This document shows, piece after piece, positions 26,689 through 64,000 of a stretch of DNA of 64,000 bases. Origin of the DNA: Cephalotus follicularis (Eukaryota; Streptophyta; Magnoliopsida; Oxalidales; Cephalotaceae); assembly GCA_001972305.1 (NCBI GenBank), contig BDDD01000535.1:185648-249647 (forward strand). The letters are read 5' to 3'. The position numbers were made by a program, and so were the translations under genes. How positions within the stretch are numbered: position 1 is the first letter of the stretch; each line of letters starts with the position of its first letter. The notes under the pieces were generated by a model. That model did no database searches and had not been told where the DNA came from. It worked only from the letters and a program-made list of their open reading frames with translations.

Positions 26689-28789
26689 ACAGATACATAT
26701 AACTACTGTGCTGATATGAATACACTGAACTAAATTACAAAACTCCTCGAAACCCAAGCTATCCAAGTTCCATGATGTATAATGCCTCATATCACTGCCA
26801 ACTTGGCTAACCATATACTGCTACCTGATGTAAAAGTTGTGCCCATTCAGAGAATGGATCAGCCACACTGGCTCGGTAGAAAAACCCTATGTGCAATGAA
26901 GTGAACAAATATCACAATGTATTATGCATGCCATGTCATATGCATAAATGTCAATTATAATCTGCTATCCATATGCGAGCCACCCTATACCAGATCCTAT
27001 GCAATAGGAGCTATCCATACAAGTCTTTCCATCATCTAGTGGACAATCCATAAAATGTGTGCAAGTACACTCAACCATACCAATATAACTTAACAACCTT
27101 CCAATAAAACATATCAATGACATCTAGGCGCCCATGGATTGACCCTTGGAAACACAGACTAGATGGCTTAATCGTCTATGGATCTCCCCATAGAAATACA
27201 ATTAGATCTCCTAGCTGACTATGGATTTCCCATAGAAACACAACTAGATCTAACTATTTATGAATATTCCCTAGAAATGCAGCTAGAGACTGGAGTCAAC
27301 AGTGCAAGAAAAGCTAATCAAGGCAAGTAACTACCTAGTTAGAGGGATCAATTGAACAAATTATGGCGCCTAACATGCTTGAGCTAGAAGCTAGAACAAG
27401 GTCATTCTAATAGGTTCAATCTAATAAATCAATTTCATACGATAACACCTTCCATTTTTGTACTAATTCATGTAGAAAACATTTCAATTAAGCAAAGATT
27501 GACCTTGATTGATTCGCAATTGAAACCCATGTTGAAATACAATATACATGCCTAAGAAAGGACCCAGAAGAAAGAACAGTTAAAGAAATTATTAGATTGT
27601 TGAAACCATTCATTTTAGAAATAAAAATTGGCAAAAAATTTACGAACATTGATCCACGATCCATCCTCACTAAATAGTGATAAAAGCATATATGGAAAGC
27701 CATACATGGGTCTAGAGAAGAACCCGAAAGAAAATCATTTGAGAAAAGTCCTTAAACTTCTAAAATTTATCCATTTTGAAGAAACAGGGGAAAGGGGTAG
27801 ATGCTCATGAAGATAGCCTCGATGCTTTTCCAACTTTCACTTAAGCTTGTGAGAACAGACTTGAAAAGCATCGATACTTTTCGGTTCAATACTTATAGTA
27901 GCTAAACAAGAAAGCGTCGACGCTTAAAGGGAAACCGACTTTGCTTTTCCAGGCCTACAACTAATATCACTTCTAGATAATGAAATGCAGCGATACTATG
28001 GGAGAAAGTATTGATGTTGTTCACGAGAAAGCGTTAATGCTTTACAAAACATCAACGCTTTCTGGTCTGGTGACAACGAACAAAACTGCCATTTCAAACC
28101 AAAACACCCAGTCTCAAATATAAAATCCATTTCAACTCTTTCTAACCATAGAAAATTCCTTTAAAGCCATTTAAAACAAAGATTCAACACTAACAACCTA
28201 CAAATCCGAAAATGAATAGAAAAGTTAGGTTCAACTCCATTTTTTGATTAAAAAAAAAACTCAAACTCATTCATTCAATTCACGTTCAATCAATTAATAC
28301 CATATCCATACATGTAAATGCATCCATGATAGTTTAGGCATGTTCAAAGCATATAGAAATTAAGTAGAGAGTTGTTATCTATTTGCAAGCTTGAAGAAAT
28401 GAAGAACACAAGATAATCCACTTCATTTAATCCATGCAAGCATCAACAAATGAAATCAGATTACTCCCCTTTCCTTGCTTACAGAAATCGACTGCCCTTA
28501 GAGAGTTTGTGAGTGAGTGTCGTGTGTTTTTCTTTTGTGTGAGGAAGAGAGAGTAGGAGAGTGTAAAGAATGAGAATGAGTGAGTAGGGCGATGCCTGTA
28601 AGTTCACTAAACCCTCATGCTCCTTTAAGCTAATAACTACCCATATAAACTCACTTAGGTAAATTAATACACCCATGTAATTCTCCATGCATATAAAGTA
28701 TTGACACATTAATATTCACAGGTAAATAAATGTCACAAATGTCATACCATATGCAATCAATATCCATACTAATATCACCTACACATACG

Positions 28790-28835
<46 letters not shown>

Positions 28836-29098
28836 CGTATGTGTACATCATAAATTCTTAACAATAACATAATGTAGCTAAAGGATGATCATAGAAAACT
28901 CTGTCTTTACATCGTCCATTCCTTATAAGAATCTAGTCCCTAGATTTCACGAGCTCGATAGCTAAACAAGTCATCCTTCGATCAATTTCCTTCCTTTCAC
29001 TTGCAAATCTCAAATAGAAATGTAGATGTATGAGCGTTGTATGTTCTACTTGAGATAAAACGGGTAGTTTCTCATATGGTTTAGGTAGGGCCATTACA
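26689..29098 (-). mobile_element. LTR E, part of an older element into which D inserted
   Basis: Minus-strand LTR starting TGTAATGGCCC at 29098 and broken at 26688 by D; the remainder should lie beyond the left edge of the window. It is related to D's LTR: the block gtgcccattcagagaatggatcagcc (26847 on) parallels 24808-24832. A pyrimidine/purine-rich tract at 28495-28590 resembles a 5' leader. Palindromic motifs lie at 27865-28065, with a perfect AAGCGTCGACGCTT at 27912-27925. Repeats of gactatggatttcccatagaaac-type words occur at 27130-27280. No coding region. Confidence 0.65.
28780..28845. repeat. 66-bp perfect palindrome with a TA core
   Basis: The arm TACACATACGGGTAT at 28780-28794 is mirrored exactly by its reverse complement at 28831-28845, and everything between is alternating TA. 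The whole block is self-complementary and could extrude as a cruciform. Confidence 0.9.
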
Positions 29099-35532: not shown

Positions 35533-36037
35533 TGTTGAGTCACAATCATGGGGAGATTGTTGAGTCTCAATCATATGTTTTAATGATTACAAATTAGCAT
35601 TTAACAAGTTTACTTGATGTGCAAGATATTACAAAGTTCAATACCAAGGCAAAACTAATCTGCAGCAAAAGACATTGACCTTCCAGAAATGANNNNNNNN
35701 NNNNNNNNNNNNNNNNNNNNNNNNNNNNNNNNNNNNNNNNNNNNNNNNNNNNNNNNNNNNNNNNNNNNNNNNNNNNNNNNNNNNNNNNNNNNNNNNNNNN
35801 NNNNNNNNNNNNNNNNNNNNNNNNNNNNNNNNNTGGAAACTCAAGGGGTTCTTGAGAAAGTGGACGTAGGCACGGATTTTGCCGAACCACTATAAATCGT
35901 TTGCACACTCTCTATCCCTTATCTCTTTACTTACAAGTGTATTATTTGTTCTTATGATTGTTTAGCTTCATAGTCTTAATTTGCTAATTCCGCAAACAAA
36001 TTAATTTGTAGTTTAAGGTTGCTATATAGTCTTTTCA
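35533..36037 (+). repeat. Element J 5' LTR, containing a 141-N assembly gap
   Basis: Starts TGTTGAGTCACAATC, ends tagtcttttca. Positions 35693-35833 are N. The bases on either side of the gap are adjacent in the 3' LTR (ccagaaatga then tggaaactc near 38430-38445), and the known bases here total 364, which equals the 389-bp 3' LTR minus one extra 25-bp unit. The gap therefore probably hides no sequence. Confidence 0.88.
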
Positions 36038-36039
36038 AT

Positions 36040-36053
36040 TGGTATCAGAGTGG
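36040..36053 (+). other. Primer binding site of element J
   Basis: TGGTATCAGAGTGG begins two bases after the LTR end; initiator-Met type, as usual for plant Copia. Confidence 0.8.
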
Positions 36054-36092
36054 TTATCTCATTATTCTTAATTGTTAGAGATATAAAGATCC

Positions 36093-37463
36093 ATGGCAAA
36101 CCATATGAACATAGGATTAGAAGGTTCCTCCATAACTAGACCTCCGTTCTTTGACGGAGTTAACTATAGTTTTTGGAAAACTAGAAAGACCATCTTTCTA
36201 CAATCCCTAGACTATCAATTATGGCATATCATTCTAAATGGTCCTAGGATGCCCACAAAACCTATAGAAGGAGTAGTCTCTCCTAAGCCCGAAAATGAAT
36301 ATAATGATAATGACTTTAGGATGCTCCAATTAAATTCTAAAGCTAAACATGTTTTATTTTGTGCCGTTGGTCCTAATGAATTTAATCGGATATCTTCTTG
36401 TGATTCAGCAAAAGAAATGTGGGATTTATTAGAAGTCACATATGAAGGCACGAATCAAGTAAAAGAATCCAAAATTAGCATGCTTGTACATGAATATGAA
36501 TTATTTGTGATGCATGATAATGAGTGCATAAGTGATATGTTTTCTCGTTTTACTACTATTATTAATTCTCTTAAGAATCTTGGCAAATCATATTCTAACC
36601 AAGAACTTGTTAGAAAAATCTTAAGATGCTTACCGAAGATTTGGACTCCAAAGGTGACGGCAACTGAGGAGGCTAAAGATCTCTCCATTCTCCCACTCGA
36701 ACAACTCCTTGGTTCGTTAATGACACATGAGACTACAATCAAGAATCATGAGAATGTAGAAGTCAAGAAGAAGAAGTCAATCGCTTTTAAAGCCTCAAAA
36801 GAAGAAAGTGAAAGCGATGAAGATGGAGATGTTGCACTTATAACTTCCCAATTCAAAAGGTTTCTCAAAAATCGAAAAGGGAAAAAGGCTTTCAAAAAGG
36901 AATTTCTCCAAGATGAAGAGTCAAGCAAAAGGGAAGAACCAACGTGCTACGAATGCAATAAGCCCGGCCACTTAAAAAATGAGTGTCCAAACATTAAAAA
37001 GAAAGAGCAATTCAAGAAAAAGAATGAATACTTCAAGAAGAAGAAAGTGATGGTAGCCACATGGTCGGATAGCGATCCCTCAAGCTCCGAAGAGGAAAGC
37101 GATGAAGAAGTTACACACATCGCTTACATGGCAATTGAGGATGAGGAAGAAAATGAGGTAAATTTTACATTTGACGAATTGCAAAATGCTTATGAGAATT
37201 TATATGTTGAATATGAAAATGTGTGTTTGAAAAATAAATCTTTAAAGAAAAATGCTATTTCTATATCTAACGAATTAGAAATTCTAAAGAGTGAGAATAG
37301 CAAATATTTGAATGAAATTGAATCTCTAAAGGATAAAAATAGTTTTTATATGAATGAGATTGATATTTTAAATGTTTCTTCAAAATTGTCAATTGATTTT
37401 CTAGAAGAAAATGGAAAACTGAAAATTGAGATTGATGCTTTGAAAAATTGGAAAATCTTTTAG
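36093..37463 (+). CDS. Element J gag (Copia type), intact 456 codons
   Basis: Capsid-nucleocapsid protein of a Copia element. ATG 36093 is the first Met after the primer site. Residues about 12-215 form the Copia gag core (RPPFFDGVNYSFWKTRK, then AKEMWDLLEVTYEGTNQVKE). A Lys-rich acidic stretch follows, then one CCHC knuckle, CYECNKPGHLKNEC, at residues 285-298. From about residue 350 the protein is acidic and then coiled-coil-like, rich in Glu, Lys, Asn and Leu, as in SIRE-type gag. It ends at 37463 in a frame different from the remaining gag segment, so the original protein was longer. No internal stop, which sets it apart from every other coding region here. Confidence 0.85.
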   Translation: MANHMNIGLEGSSITRPPFFDGVNYSFWKTRKTIFLQSLDYQLWHIILNGPRMPTKPIEGVVSPKPENEYNDNDFRMLQLNSKAKHVLFCAVGPNEFNRISSCDSAKEMWDLLEVTYEGTNQVKESKISMLVHEYELFVMHDNECISDMFSRFTTIINSLKNLGKSYSNQELVRKILRCLPKIWTPKVTATEEAKDLSILPLEQLLGSLMTHETTIKNHENVEVKKKKSIAFKASKEESESDEDGDVALITSQFKRFLKNRKGKKAFKKEFLQDEESSKREEPTCYECNKPGHLKNECPNIKKKEQFKKKNEYFKKKKVMVATWSDSDPSSSEEESDEEVTHIAYMAIEDEEENEVNFTFDELQNAYENLYVEYENVCLKNKSLKKNAISISNELEILKSENSKYLNEIESLKDKNSFYMNEIDILNVSSKLSIDFLEENGKLKIEIDALKNWKIF

Positions 37464-37708
37464 GATTACAAAGGTGTGTGTTTGACAAAGCCGGTCTTGG
37501 TTTTGAAGAAATGAAAAATGTCAAACACTTTAACAATTTCTTTGTCAAGAAATTTGAGCCTCAAATTGTTTGTAATTATTGTGGTAGAATAGGACATGTA
37601 TCTACATCTTGCTTTTATAGAAATAATATTTTTCTTGGTAAAACTAGGAAAATTTGGGTTCCTAAAGGAACTTTTGTGACTAACTTGAAAGGACCCAAGT
37701 TCAAATAG
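37448..37708 (+). pseudogene. Element J gag remainder with second zinc knuckle
   Basis: Shifted one frame from the end of the 456-codon ORF. Encodes RCVFDKAGLGFEE and the knuckle CNYCGRIGHVSTSC (about 37569-37610), then KIWVPKGT. In SIRE-type elements this joins gag to pol; here the frame ends at 37708 and pol is absent, so pol was deleted just downstream. Confidence 0.75.
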
Positions 37709-38252
37709 GTACCAAAATCTTAAACTTTGTTTTGTAGGTGTACTTGGAGTTAATTTCAATATGTTCAAGTACATAAGTTTGAGGAAGAAAGCTTTAATTG
37801 AGGGGGAGGTATTGATATTATGTTTTTACTTTTAATCTTTTTATTTAGTATCATTTTTGCTCTCTTTGTTTTGATCCTATTTCCAATTGGTATCTTTCAA
37901 ATTTTAAAATTATTTAATTGGTATCTATTCCTTGATATTATCTTTTTGATGCTAACAAAAAGGGGGAGAATGCTTATGCTTAAAGAAATATTGATAGCTT
38001 ATGCTAAGGGGGAGCTAGATATGCTATTAATGGATGAATATGTTAAGGGGGAGAATATGATAAAAGGGAAGCTAGATAAGATTACTTGCATAAATCATTT
38101 TTTTAATGAGAATTAGATATCATATTAAGGGGGAGCATATCTAAAGTTTTTATATTGGTATCTAAAAGAAAAATCTCTTTGCTTTGAAATGTCATATATA
38201 TTTTTTTTTCCATAATGAAGCAAATTTTTGTAATCATCAAAAAGGGGGAGAT
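37709..38252 (+). other. Element J 3' tail with repeated aagggggag motifs
   Basis: Noncoding. Purine tracts of the form agggggag occur near 37799, 37968, 38008, 38047, 38128 and finally at 38243-38252 next to the LTR. Repeated polypurine-like tracts in this region are a known habit of SIRE-type elements; element G has the same at 54448-54652. Only the last can be the true plus-strand primer. Confidence 0.75.
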
Positions 38253-38641
38253 TGTTGAGTCACAATCATGGGGAGATTGTTGAGTCACAATCATGGGGAG
38301 ATTGTTGAGTCTCAATCATATGTTTTAATGATTACAAATTTGCATTTAACAAGTTTACTTGATGTGCAAGATATTACAAAGTTCAATACCAAGGCAAAAC
38401 TAATCTGCAGCAAAAGGCATTGACCTTCCAGAAATGATGGAAACTCAAGGGGTTCTTGAGAAAGTGGACGTAGGCACGGATTTTGCCGAACCACTATAAA
38501 TCGTTTGCACACTCTCTATCCCTTATCTCTTTGCTTACAAGTGTTTTATTTGTTCTTATGATTGTTTAGCTTCATAGTCTTAATTTGCTAATTCCGCAAA
38601 CAAATTAATTTGTAGTTTAAGGTTGCCATATAGTCTTTTCA
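38253..38641 (+). repeat. Element J 3' LTR
   Basis: 389 bp. It begins with two copies of the 25-bp unit tgttgagtcacaatcatggg + gagat before the LTR proper; the 5' LTR has one copy. Otherwise nearly identical to the 5' LTR. Confidence 0.9.
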
Positions 38642-38646
38642 AACAC

Positions 38647-57296: not shown

Positions 57297-59064
57297 GAAA
57301 ACTTTTTCTATAATACCCCGTACCTATTTTTAGAGGATTATATTTTAAGGCCTTGTTTGGTTCATGGGAAGGATTAAGTGGGATTGGTGGCTTATTTAAA
57401 ACACGTGGAAGAGAATGGTTTAGGTTATTATATTGATTTTATAGTTAGCTTCTTGAGGAAGCTTGTTGTTCCCAAGGTGGGGTTGGGATAAGAAGTTGTT
57501 GGAGTTGGTAGTTCTTCTTGGTAAGTGAGTTCGGTTTTTGGAGAGAGAGAAAGAAAGGGAGAGCGCTCGTCTTCTTCTTCCTTGCCGAGAGTTGGAAACT
57601 TTGTCTTGCTTTTGAGCTTTGGAGGTGAGCTCCTACCTTCTCTGGTTTCGGTAAGGGCATGATGATACGTTGTGCTCGGGCCGGGGAAGAGGATGATGGC
57701 CTGGTTTAGCTGGTTATGTTATGTTTATGTATGTGTTTGTGTTTCTTCCTGGGTTAATTCGTGTTAGTTTTGCAGACGACGGTCCCGTTGCTGAGACAGA
57801 GCACCTCGGGGTTGGTCGGCGATAGCGTCTGGGGTGTTTCTGTGAGTGGGACATTCTCCTCTTTCTTTTATTTGATATTTACGTGTGCCTGTTATTGTCC
57901 TCTGGTTGAATGTTTTCCTTGGGGATTTGGATCCCGGTTATCTTGTATATTGTGTTCTTGATCTGGGTTGAGCTTGAGAGCTCGGTTGGTCCTCAGGATG
58001 GTGTATTTTCGTCTTCGGACGTGTTGTTATCTTTGTTGATGATTCTCTCCTTATACCTTGCTTTTCCTCTGTTATGAGGGGTGCACGAAATTGTGCGGTT
58101 TGTTTTCTGGGTTTCCCCTGGTTGTACGGATAAAGGATAGCGAGCTGAGGCTTGGATAGATACTAGCGGATGAGGTCTAGATAGACATAGCAGGCAAGGC
58201 TTGGATAGGTGTGTGTTTCGCCTGGTATGGCGGCAGACCACAGATATTGTGGTGGATAGCGAGCTGAGGCACGGATAGATGCTAGCGGACGAGGTCCGGA
58301 TAGATTCTAGCAGGCGAGGCTTGGATATGTGTGTGTGTGTGGTGTCATGGTGTATGACAGCAAACTACGGGATGTGGTGATGTGTGTTTGTCTTCCTCTT
58401 CCTTATTTGTTATCCCTGACACGGTTGTTATTTGTTGATGATGATATAATCTTCCATTGGATTCTTATATTTGTTGATATTTGACTCTCTTGACAGGCTC
58501 TGAGGAGCTGGAAGTTGTCATGTGGTTGAGTTGTACATTCTTTTATTGTCCCCTGATATATTCTTGTTTCTCCCAGTTGGGTATGACCTGATATATGTTT
58601 CCTTATGCACCCAGTGGTTATGGATGCTCTGGAGAATGCTTGTTCTTACTCACTAGTCATTTGGACTAATCCCCTCCCAGTTGTTTTGCAGAGGAAGCTG
58701 CTGTGGTTGCCAGGGTAGTCTTTTGGGTTGATAAGGTAGTCTGCGGGGGATGAGCAGAGCTGCCGGCTTCACCGGCTTTTCCTTGCATGCATTCATGGGG
58801 GCATATGTGTTTTAATACTGTTGTTGTATGGTCCTCGGCCTGAGGAGGAAATGATATTCTTTTGTATGGGTCCTCGGCTTTTGAGCAGGGGACGATATTT
58901 TGTGAACAAGATATATATTATTTTGCAATGATAATATGATGTGTTCTTGAGATGATTTATTGTGTTTAATGAAGAGATTTCGTGTTTTTACTTGAAACGC
59001 TGTGTTACGATCTTCTGCTTGTTTACCCAGAAGGTTACCCGAGGTCGAGCAGGTCGGGGGATCT

Positions 59065-59813
59065 TGATGCATTTGCAAGTCCAAGCTCTAGTCCAACATT
59101 TTGATCAAGCCCAATATACCTCAAATTTACTAGATAGGCTGATCCACTTTTTTAAGGAGTTGTTTAGGCCCTTTCCATATTCTTCTCATTATTGCATATT
59201 GATAGTGTCTAGGTTCAATGAATGAGAGGAATTATGCACTTTTTGACAAGTTTTGAATTAGGGACGAATTTGGAATCATTATGGACAATTCAATCTTGTG
59301 GAAGCAAATTGTGGAGGCAATATTGGATCAAATCTAAGTTGATGGGTTGTTTTATCTTATGGAGCAAATTATGGAGCCAATGTTGGATCAAATCAGATTT
59401 GTTGAGTTGTTGACTATCACTTGGAAAAGGGCTAGGTTCATTGGCCTTAATAAGGAAAGTTGAATTTTTTAAGTTATTCATGCATAGGAGTTAATTTCAG
59501 GAATAATTTCTTATTGTTTTTATGATTGACTGTAGTTTCCATTTTAAACACTTTTATTATGGGCATATATAAACCCCATTGTAAGGAATTGAAAGCCAGA
59601 CTTGAATGAATGATATTTTCCCTTATTGTGATATTACTTACTTTATCCAAGTATTGATCTAACTTGGTGGTGCAACAATCAATCCATGCTGGTGGCATAG
59701 CCTTTAGGCTTGGAGAATTGTTTTGTTGATAATTTTTTTACCTTCTTCTTCAACCAACCACAAACCCATCTCAAATTCGTAGCTCACTTTAAAGGCCCAC
59801 TTTAAATGCATCA
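59065..59813 (+). repeat. Element L left LTR
   Basis: 749 bp, TGATGCATTT...AAATGCATCA, so its ends are a 10-bp inverted repeat. Followed two bases later by TGGTATCAGAGCACAGG (59816-59832), an initiator-Met primer site. Contains repeated ggatcaaat...gagcaaatt words (59295-59400). Confidence 0.88.
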
Positions 59814-59879
59814 ATTGGTATCAGAGCACAGGTTTTGAAGTGAGCTTTTGTTCTTTAACCCAATAATCATCATCAAACC

Positions 59880-61052
59880 ATGTATGTTTCATCTTCTCCT
59901 CTACCACGTTGGGCAGTAACCAATTTTGTCTTGAAGGAATACTTTGAGTCCATAAAGAGAGATTTGCACTCCATCACTCTACAATTGCAAACTCTCAACA
60001 GAAACCAAACACCACCTCCCCAAAACCACCTTAATCAACCGCCACCACCTCAAAACAAACACCTTCAGTATCAACCTCTACCATTTTATAGACACCCTCA
60101 AAGTGGTCAAGCCTTACAACCAACACCTGCCTATGAGTTAGTGTCAGAAGAAGAAGAACAGGATGAGGAGGATTCTCATGATGAAGAAAGTTCTATTGTT
60201 GATGAGATCCTTATTGCAGAGCCCATGGAAGGAAACCTCTTAATGTTGAGTCCTATCTTGACTGTTGACGATGAAGAACTTGATGAACAAATTGAAAATC
60301 TTCTTGATCAAGAACAAGAGACTATTAAAAAGTCTAATGATCAAGTTGACAAGCTTGATGAACATGTGGTTGAAGATTCCATAGAGGAGTCATTAGTTCA
60401 AAAAGTTTTGTGTGGTATGATTCCTATGAATGGCTATCACTCGTTATTTCTTAAGCCTTGTGAATTTAATAAAAGTGCAAAATATGATGGACAAGTGAAG
60501 AAGAAAGATTGTGATTGGAAACCCTCGATGGATTTCTTGTCCACACAACCACAACTTGTTGAGTTTGTTATTCCAGAAAAGTTCAATCAATCACATCGGG
60601 AGGACTTTTTGTTGAAGGTGTTGTTGAATCAATTCAAGACTTCAAAGTGGTTTTGCATGTTAAGCACAAAGTTGGTATTCCCCAAAACAACAGGTTTACT
60701 ACTTCAAATCTACAAAACTAGAGGTCGAGTTTTCTCCAACAAGGGGACGAATTTGAGATGGGTTTGTGGTTGGTTGAAGAAGAAGGTAAAAAATGATCAA
60801 CAAAACAATTCTTCAAGCCTAAAGGCTATGCAACCATCATGGATTGATTGTTGCACCACAAAGTTAGATCAATACTCGGATAAAGTAAGTAATATCACAA
60901 TAAGGGAAAATATCATTCATTCAAGTCTGGTTTTCAATTCCTTACAATGGGGTTTATATATGCCCATAGTAAAAGTGTTTAAAATGGAAACTACAATCAA
61001 TCATAAAAACAATAAGAAATTATTCCTGAAATTAACTCCTATGCATGAATAA
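59880..61052 (+). CDS. Element L ORF, 390 codons, running into antisense LTR
   Basis: Open from ATG 59880, the first Met after the primer site, in the gag position. Residues about 45-85 are Pro/Gln-rich, 88-125 strongly acidic (SEEEEQDEEDSHDEESS), then a Glu/Asp/Leu-rich coiled-coil-like stretch, then a basic region with VEFVIPEKFNQSHREDFLLK. No zinc knuckle, protease or RT motif is visible and I do not recognise a family. From about residue 290 the frame is antisense LTR sequence, so the last ~100 residues are an accident of the inverted arm; the same peptide can be read on the minus strand at 59474-59698. Confidence 0.5.
   Translation: MYVSSSPLPRWAVTNFVLKEYFESIKRDLHSITLQLQTLNRNQTPPPQNHLNQPPPPQNKHLQYQPLPFYRHPQSGQALQPTPAYELVSEEEEQDEEDSHDEESSIVDEILIAEPMEGNLLMLSPILTVDDEELDEQIENLLDQEQETIKKSNDQVDKLDEHVVEDSIEESLVQKVLCGMIPMNGYHSLFLKPCEFNKSAKYDGQVKKKDCDWKPSMDFLSTQPQLVEFVIPEKFNQSHREDFLLKVLLNQFKTSKWFCMLSTKLVFPKTTGLLLQIYKTRGRVFSNKGTNLRWVCGWLKKKVKNDQQNNSSSLKAMQPSWIDCCTTKLDQYSDKVSNITIRENIIHSSLVFNSLQWGLYMPIVKVFKMETTINHKNNKKLFLKLTPMHE
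60731..60756 (+). other. Element L polypurine tract and inversion breakpoint
   Basis: ccaacaaggggacgaatt would normally be followed by the LTR start TGATGC. Here it reads ...aatt-TGAG, and from acgaatttga (60747-60756) onward the sequence is the reverse complement of the left LTR from 59780 leftwards. The ten bases acgaatttga fit both sequences, so they are a microhomology at the junction. Confidence 0.75.
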
Positions 61053-61461
61053 CTTGAAAAATTCAACTTTCCTTGATAAGGCCAATGAACCTAGCCCTTT
61101 TCCAAGTGATAGTCAACAACTTAACAAATCTGATTTGATCCACGATTGGCTCCATAATTTGCTCCATAAGATAAAACAACCCATCAAATCAGATTTGATC
61201 CATAATTGGCTCCACAATTTGCTTCCACAAGATTGAATTGTCCATAATGATTCCAAATTTGTCCCTAATTCAAAACTTGTCAAAAAAGTGCTTAATTCCC
61301 CTCATTCATTGAACCTAGACACCATCAATATGCAATAATGAGAAGAATATGGAGAGGGCCTACACAACTACTTAACAAGTGGATCAGTCTATCTAGTAAA
61401 TTTGAGGTATATTGGGCTTGATCAAAATGTTGGACTAGAGCTTGGACTTGCAAATGCATCA
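60747..61461 (-). repeat. Element L right arm: inverted LTR lacking its last ~33 bp
   Basis: Reverse complement of 59065-59780. It begins at the polypurine tract and ends exactly at the U3 terminus AAATGCATCA (61461), then GATCT. The final 33 bases of the LTR (59781-59813) are absent. Confidence 0.9.
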
Positions 61462-62057
61462 GATCTCCCCGGGGCAAGGGTTAACCTGTGGGGCTCGTGT
61501 CTTGAACTCAGGGTTGTTAGGGCTGGGTTGGTTTATGTTGTGGTCTGGCACTTGTCGTCGGGCTCTGTCCGAGGAGAACATGTTGTCTGAGGAGAACGTG
61601 TTATCTGGGGAGGACATGCCTGGGGAGGACATGTCCGAGGTTAGTCGTCCAATGAGGACATGCCCGAGGATAGCTCGTACGGGGAAGGCATGTCTTAGGA
61701 TGGAGGTGCAGGCCTGGCTTGTGATACGTCGTGTTGTGTTGGGTGGTGTTGTCATCCCTTACCCGGGACCCCAGACAAGACGTAGTATTACGTTCTCATC
61801 CCTAGCTCCCTCCCCTGGCATGTTCCTTTAGTGGTACGGTGTGTTTGGGCAGTGGTTATTGTGTGTGTCCCCTTTAGTTAAACGGTGAGTTTGAATGGTT
61901 TTGTGTAAAGGTTAATTATAGTTATGTCATTTCCTATCTTATTTTCTTCCCTGCCAGGAGTTGTGGCATTGTTTTGGCTTAGAGGAGATGGGAAATTCCT
62001 CCTTCTTACCGAGCGATTCGTCCGAGGTGGTTATCTTGAGGGACGAGTCGTCACAGT

Positions 62058-62073
62058 TGGTATCAGAGAGACC
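62058..62073 (+). other. Primer binding site of element K
   Basis: TGGTATCAGAGAGACC two bases after the LTR end at 62055; initiator-Met type. Confidence 0.8.
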
Positions 62074-63649: not shown

Positions 63650-64000
63650 TGTAATACCCCGTACCTGTTTTTAGAGGATTATATTTTAAGGCCTTGTTTG
63701 GCTCATGGGAAGGATTAAGTTCGATTGGTGGCTGATTTAAAACATGTGGACAAGAATAGTCTAGGTTATTATATTGATTTCATAGTTAGCTTCTTGAGGA
63801 AGCTTGTTGTTCCCAAGGTGGTGTTGGGATAAGAAGTTGTTGGAGTTGGTAGTTCTTCTCGGTAAGTGAGTTCGGTTTTTGGAGAGAGAGAAAGAAAGGG
63901 AGAGCTCTCGTCTTCTTCTTCCTTGTCGAGAGTTGGAATCTTTGTCTTGCTTTTGAGCTTTGGAGGTGAGCTCCTACCTTCTCTGGTTTCGGTAATGGCA
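63650..64000 (+). repeat. Element K 3' LTR, first 351 bp
   Basis: Matches 57309-57660 with scattered differences; the remainder lies beyond the right edge of the window. Confidence 0.88.

Follow-up and report, generated by a model that had tools for sequence, protein, structure and literature searches.

A retrotransposon of Cephalotus follicularis inserted with an inverted right long terminal repeat and two U3 ends

The stretch of DNA analyzed here (the window) comprises 64,000 nucleotides of Cephalotus follicularis contig BDDD01000535.1. At window positions 59065-61461 lies one non-autonomous long terminal repeat (LTR) retrotransposon whose right LTR is inverted. The unit is 2397 bp long including both LTR arms, both of which point the unique 3ʹ region (U3) outward and the unique 5ʹ region (U5) inward, and it sits inside an LTR of a different retrotransposon. 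The features of the locus, with the basis of each in brackets, are as follows.

59060..59064, no strand: target-site duplication, left copy, GATCT (sequence and empty site)
59065..59813, plus strand: left LTR, complete, 749 bp, TGATGCATTT...AAATGCATCA, U3 end outward (sequence; in relatives L010 and L017 such LTRs form direct repeats at the two ends)
59814..60746, plus strand: internal region, 933 bp (sequence and genome matches)
59816..59827, plus strand: primer binding site-like TGGTATCAGAGC, 2 nt past the left LTR (sequence; identical in L010)
60741..60747, plus strand: polypurine-tract core AAGGGGA, running on into the inverted LTR here and into GTT-TGATGC (U3) in relatives (comparison with relatives)
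60747..61461, minus strand: inverted right LTR, LTR positions 716 to 1, U3 end outward (sequence and BLAST)
61462..61466, no strand: target-site duplication, right copy, GATCT (sequence and empty site)
57311..62055, plus strand, both boundaries approximate: host LTR of a different LTR retrotransposon, holding the inserted unit (57311-57659 against 63652-64000, 95%)

Upon aligning the right arm (60747-61461) with the reverse complement of the left LTR, we found 95.5% identity over 717 BLAST columns, with 14 transitions, 15 transversions, and 3 indel columns, in agreement with the inverted relationship over about 715 bp described in an earlier note on this DNA. The right LTR lacks the last 33 nt of U5. 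An inverted repeat of this length ending exactly at both element ends is far beyond chance. Both outer ends are U3 and a perfect GATCT surrounds the whole unit, again as the earlier note had it. The unit has the TG...CA ends, the primer site beside the left LTR, and the polypurine tract before the right LTR of a non-autonomous (LARD/TRIM-like) LTR-retrotransposon family, and we take TGGTATCAGAGC to be a primer site of the initiator-methionine transfer RNA (tRNA) type. No reverse transcriptase or integrase of its own was found, the sole frame of at least 200 amino acids in the unit having no Pfam match above the cut-off. The element thus offers no pol gene by which to place it in the Ty3/gypsy superfamily. 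The frame, of 297 amino acids, was considered as a conserved gene; this was unsupported, as it was broken in all 10 other copies compared, and its differences to 7 of these showed no concentration at third codon positions.

The host element has its next LTR copy from about 63652 and a primer site near 62058. An empty-site query of 201 nt, consisting of both flanks joined with a single GATCT, was compared with the genome (G000, 1.577 Gb in 9746 contigs), and the best 40 of 2005 candidates were scored. The query matched over 1-201 in all 40 scored host-LTR copies, with exactly 201 bases in 33 of them and 199-204 in the others. As the joined flanks match every scored copy end to end, the unit represents one clean insertion with a 5-bp duplication. 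Nested insertions are present in the window, which might suggest two opposite insertions fused by deletion; the single target duplication and the intact empty site exclude this at the window, where the right arm is not a second insertion with its own duplication, and six other units with U3 at both ends (U3-out) also have matching duplications, making such a fusion scarcely credible. Neither flank of the unit is an inverted copy of the other. This, the 32 differences spread about evenly between the arms, and the matching duplications at seven loci speak against an assembly artefact such as a palindromic read, for which nothing was found in favor and which we hold to be very improbable. The target (59055-59064 with 61462-61476) is partly palindromic, GGGGA TC TCCCC, as is that of the unit at C3829, AGGTGACAATGTCACCT, reflecting either an integrase preference or chance.

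When the inner junction was compared with relatives, in which the boundary between tract and U3 reads GGAGTT-TGATGC, the window was found to read AAGGGG and then ACGAATTTGAG. The break lies 4 nt before the expected U3 start, and the overlap between tract and inverted LTR is about 1 nt (A). The 10-bp microhomology (acgaatttga) on which the earlier note had placed this junction, at the polypurine tract, is thereby reduced to about 1 nt; given the boundary in relatives, ACGAATTTGA is plain inverted LTR sequence. We also considered that the right LTR had flipped in place between its 10-bp ends and that a short deletion between two ACGAATTTGA copies had followed; this was rejected, as the tract of relatives lacks ACGAATTTGA. 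The earlier note had also suggested looking for other copies with the same inverted junction; at 0 or 1 mismatch it was found at no second place in the genome, so the window copy is a single event. At up to 3 mismatches, the junction pattern gave 70 matches vs 30 for the reversed pattern. The mirroring of the two LTR ends over 10 bp holds in this copy and is 9/10 in many relatives, with a U5 end of AAACGCATCA.

The internal region gave 46 genome matches (best 40 of 166 candidates scored), and the search for copies with direct LTRs was successful: direct LTRs were present in L010 (TATGA duplication), L012, L017 (ACCAG duplication), and others. L014 (C1171) has three direct LTRs, in the order LTR-internal-LTR-internal-LTR, inside one GAACA duplication, and L016 (C3641) is a tandem array of the same order. 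With one duplication round the whole array, L014 is built as in known template-switch complexes. Direct U3 termini are spaced 90, 341 (and 350) bp at C9300:5963-6744 and C5623:19638-20069; the first two spacings are equal on both contigs, giving short tandem U3 arrays that were perhaps duplicated together.

To see how inverted pairs are distributed, U3 termini were mapped over the genome. The first 21 nt of U3, with up to 2 mismatches, gave 280 matches, and the reversed-pattern control gave 0. Termini from four patterns, with 100 matches listed of each 280, 130, 150, and 176, were pooled into 218 distinct termini. Among these, neighbors within 5 kb formed 46 direct, 10 convergent (U3-out), and 4 divergent pairs, so that convergent pairs make up about 1 in 6 of the listed close pairs (10/60); random placement would yield 0.07 inverted neighbors, a value that ignores retroelement clustering. 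Two control LTR families of the window (100 termini listed each, of 6225 and 108; limit 12 kb, since their elements are longer) had 8 and 14 direct and 0 inverted neighbors among the matches listed, where the first family had one inverted pair at 20 kb. No convergent or divergent pair among the matches listed included a terminus added by the fourth pattern (U3 TTCAAGCCC or near it), and the trait may therefore differ between subfamilies. Three of the divergent U3 pairs, belonging to another subfamily, may be U5-out. U3-out units vary in length from about 1.0 to 3.7 kb and so do not all descend from a single founder; for C808 (1762 bp) and C3829 (1763 bp), the comparison covered length only. 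The predominance of direct over convergent and divergent neighbors also indicates that inverted LTRs are not the normal form, as they would be in a DIRS-like or foldback DNA element. Inverted terminal repeats on the outside and a 131-bp U3 hairpin at C808 would suit such an element; relatives that share the LTR and the internal region, though, have their LTRs in direct orientation, along with a primer site, a tract, and duplications of 5 bp, and the one long frame had no recombinase or transposase match (a trans-acting recombinase was not looked for), leaving this a very remote explanation.

Perfect 5-bp duplications, at different sites, were found at seven U3-out units. Besides the window (GATCT), these are the first six loci below, to which C2069 is added.

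C306: GAGTT, perfect, between the pair's two U3 termini
C3829: CAATG, perfect, between the pair's two U3 termini
C3685: TTGGT, perfect, between the pair's two U3 termini
C976: CAAAC, perfect, between the pair's two U3 termini
C808: CTTGC, perfect, but matching across the outermost U3 termini rather than across the adjacent convergent pair
C2110: GTTTT, perfect, but matching across the outermost U3 termini rather than across the adjacent convergent pair
C2069: AAAAT on both sides, the left outer end being inverted U5

C3829, C3685, C976, C808, and C2110 were judged from small end pieces, and the duplication was perfect in 5 of 5 tested. At C2110 the inner terminus runs on into the reversed tract, and at C808 it comes directly after GCAAG. 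As GAGTT of C306 resembles the tract end and the C3829 target is nearly palindromic (10/11), these two duplications are less independent. One insertion with two U3 ends and a 5-bp duplication thus lies in the window, and such insertions recur at other sites. The GATCT duplication, the clean empty site, and the six other units with their own perfect duplications uphold the proposal of integration as a single unit bearing U3 at both ends, and at the window there is good support for the unit having formed before it integrated.

On balance, we lean towards the explanation that a complementary DNA (cDNA) was malformed before integration through a plus-strand switch and copy-back, acquiring inverted LTR arms with U3 at both termini, and was inserted whole by an integrase supplied in trans. 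We infer the switching step of the polymerase as follows. The growing plus strand would reach the polypurine tract and be blocked there by the plus-strand LTR made from a primer of its own (plus-strand strong-stop DNA), the 5ʹ end of which is exactly U3. It would then switch onto this displaced LTR close to the U5 end (position 716) and copy it back to its 5ʹ end, yielding an exact U3 terminus, and integrase would pair the two U3 ends. Copy-back onto the displaced LTR would account for the position of the break, 4 nt short of U3, for a loss confined to the U5 tail, and for the exact U3 terminus. With the last 9-10 bp common to U3 and the inverted U5 end, two U3 ends could be paired by integrase. 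We prefer this route mainly because the arms at several loci end exactly at U3; the exact stop that had been pointed out for the window arm was the same in other copies.

The inner structures of other loci bear on this choice. At C2069, a normal tract-U3 runs to about 167 and returns from about 118 to the exact U3 end via a natural inverted repeat, AATGAGAGGAAT/AATGAGAAGAAT, and CAAATC occurs in both arms and is absent from the other U3 starts among the matches listed (three patterns). At C808:379650-379820 (L060 with L056), the 131-bp hairpin consists of U3 1-53 and a return from about 79, with a 5-nt ATTTG overlap at the switch, and the flanks are mutually inverted over 18 bp of host DNA. 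A private base common to the C808 arms was dropped as a marker, the same letters being present in L046. At C2398, internal position ~867 is joined to U3 at about 85 and the sequence then goes back to the U3 end. Beside these, inverted LTR pieces 747-504 and 749-165 are joined head to tail at 205-1035 of C2069 (L015), in the left part of the AAAAT-flanked unit, and near a contig end at C94:889593-889650 (L035) two back-to-back U3 termini, TGCATCA-AATT-TGATGCA, have palindromic arms of 57 bp.

LTR followed by AT(T) and then by foreign sequence would be produced by the unintegrated right end of a cDNA, with ATT if one tRNA base is kept, as in retroviruses. Such a start, LTR+ATT, is seen in the inverted arms at C537, where it is joined to internal position ~426, and at C934 (L019), where it is joined at the tract/U3 boundary (GGGGAGTTT), the same boundary as the window break. 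Both starts are as expected for an unintegrated cDNA right end and not for an inserted copy, and both may reflect the closest rival to copy-back, namely end joining before integration. There, a double-stranded LTR fragment, trimmed by 33-35 nt and derived either from a duplex of plus-strand strong-stop DNA or from the right end of another cDNA, would be ligated tail-first to a cDNA broken at the polypurine tract, and the U3-U3 product integrated. The window overlap of about 1 nt points the same way, as does C934, which brings 41 bp of internal region with its inverted LTR like a cDNA end fragment, and C306, which mixes two LTR subfamilies in one palindromic unit with outer arms 99.3% identical over 417 bp. 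Since C2069 and C808 resemble polymerase copy-back at homology rather than ligation, and the window arms group as sisters, if weakly, we judge end joining unlikely at the window. More than one route exists: switches occur within U3 at 5-nt or hairpin homology and at the far end of the LTR, C934 overruns U3, and C808 includes inverted host DNA.

The divergence of the window arms (4.06%) is similar to that of the direct pairs of L010 (4.3%), L012 (4.3%), and L017 (3.7%). The arms group together with a support of 0.941 and 3 shared private sites (21 rows; three partial L015 rows dropped). Origin of the arms from different subfamilies was rejected, all differences being private to one arm: 14 to the left, 17 to the right, and 1 more with a left-arm base absent from every other row. 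As the family is star-like, private differences fit either origin, and the initial identity of the arms is not proven thereby. Hints once taken for two lineages were a transition:transversion ratio of 14:15 vs 290:134 pooled (p = 0.039) and paired changes in 60-bp sub-repeats.

A change after integration was weighed as well, in which a normal GATCT-flanked insertion had its right LTR later replaced by replication template switching via the 9-10 bp common to U3 and the inverted U5 end. This would keep the duplication without any U3-U3 integration. Moreover, the C808 foldback includes host DNA, so chromosomal template switching may happen near such ends, and switching after integration accounts for C808 best. 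At the window, however, two switches would be needed, the inner one on about 1 nt, and C537 and C934 start at LTR+ATT, which is absent from an integrated right end. Such replacement also predicts U5-out pairs as often as U3-out pairs, whereas 10 convergent U3 pairs were listed vs one U5-out pair in 53 listed U5 ends, an asymmetry that is weak because the U5 pattern covers mainly the window's subfamily, with four convergent pairs (C357, C535, C2069, and C2110), and because three divergent U3 pairs may count as U5-out. The control families, lacking inverted pairs within 12 kb among the matches listed, speak against it too, and we consider it rather improbable.

Several observations weigh against the copy-back explanation that we favor. 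At C808, host DNA is inverted too, which does not fit simply with copy-back: reverse transcription cannot supply these 18 bp. The inverted arm at C934 passes U3 into the tract and the internal region, and the overlap of about 1 nt at the window switch also suits joining of a trimmed LTR end. The duplication at C94 matches at 4/5 (CATTT/AATTT), the left U3 end of C357 is not recognizable, and no duplication was found at the inverted copies C537 and C2398, which lie outside the ten convergent pairs. The window arms are barely closer to each other (4.06%) than to others (4.13% between the left arm and one L010 LTR, winL-L010b), and in a comparison that took in 22 further LTR rows (three partial) each of the 32 differences proved confined to a single arm; two near-identical co-packaged RNAs or the joining of two cDNAs are possible sources of the arms. 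Set against the control families, the excess of inverted pairs is modest, Fisher's test giving p = 0.054 when convergent pairs alone are counted and 0.017 for all inverted pairs. Four divergent U3 pairs and one U5-out pair (C3895) were seen among the listed termini, and the duplications at C3895, C390, C4989, and C5860 were unreadable.

We tentatively suggest, with somewhat less than even confidence, that plus-strand copy-back is a regular by-path of reverse transcription in this plant family of elements, with U3-out molecules behind about one in six of the listed close pairs, and that U3-U3 molecules are integrated as readily as normal ones. If so, inverted-LTR copies would be dispersed natural hairpin loci, the read-through RNA of which could silence the family; their long inverted arms could act as putative hairpin sources of small RNAs against it. 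In textbook integration, one U3 end and one U5 end are joined. Inherited insertions with two U3 ends and proper duplications are natural evidence that integrase takes two like ends, and their inner junctions would mark the points at which the plus strand stalls and changes template during synthesis, which is difficult to observe in plants by other means. LTR annotation programs requiring direct repeats would presumably miss such copies. Elsewhere in the window, 28780-28845 is a perfect 66-bp palindrome that combines short unique arms with an (AT)n run, and 35533-38642 holds a repeat pair, 98.5-98.8% identical in two pieces with the left copy split by 141 bp, which looks like a young short LTR element.

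Inverted arrangements have been met in other systems. Shoemaker and colleagues in 1980 and Olsen and Swanstrom in 1985 reportedly described defective retroviral DNA, aberrant transcripts or circles with inverted segments; such inverted or palindromic retroviral DNA is said to consist of unintegrated circles in infected cells, whereas the window class consists of inherited insertions with duplications. In the copy-back defective genomes of negative-strand RNA viruses, the polymerase switches and copies to the 5ʹ end, making both ends alike; the working is similar, but these viruses use neither reverse transcription nor integration. DIRS-1-like elements are not known to make a target duplication. 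They hold open frames within inverted LTRs, and a tyrosine recombinase replaces integrase (PMC5633606, as here and below in the accessible part of each source); inverted LTRs are in common, whereas the window family has 5-bp duplications and direct-LTR relatives. The structure of a locust Gypsy subfamily, Gypsy-25, was called "an inverted pair of LTRs" (PMC8786324), which may denote a structure like that of the window unit or be loosely worded, and target duplications are not mentioned (0 occurrences) in the accessible text. In a cucumber paper, two cases of "LTRs in opposite directions" were removed in curation. The accessible parts of PMC10069891 and PMC12312487 held nothing bearing on inverted-LTR insertions, and an inherited inverted-LTR insertion with a target duplication was not found described in the literature searched, which covered subscription journals thinly.

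The closest known insertions are the complex ones of Sabot and Schulman (2007), in which one duplication surrounds an abnormal LTR arrangement attributed to template switching before integration (PMC1950507); template switching in plant particles is backed by experiment (PMC2923131). As in the window, a single duplication encloses the whole complex, but the complexes described there comprise three LTRs and end normally on both sides, whereas the window has two arms, inverted, with both ends U3, and the word "inverted" was not found in the accessible text of that paper (PMC1950507). Within the window's own family, the direct three-LTR array of L014 with its one GAACA duplication is like those complexes. 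Template-switched complex insertions with one duplication and direct LTRs are thus known, and what seems new here is the inversion of the LTRs and the presence of two U3 ends.

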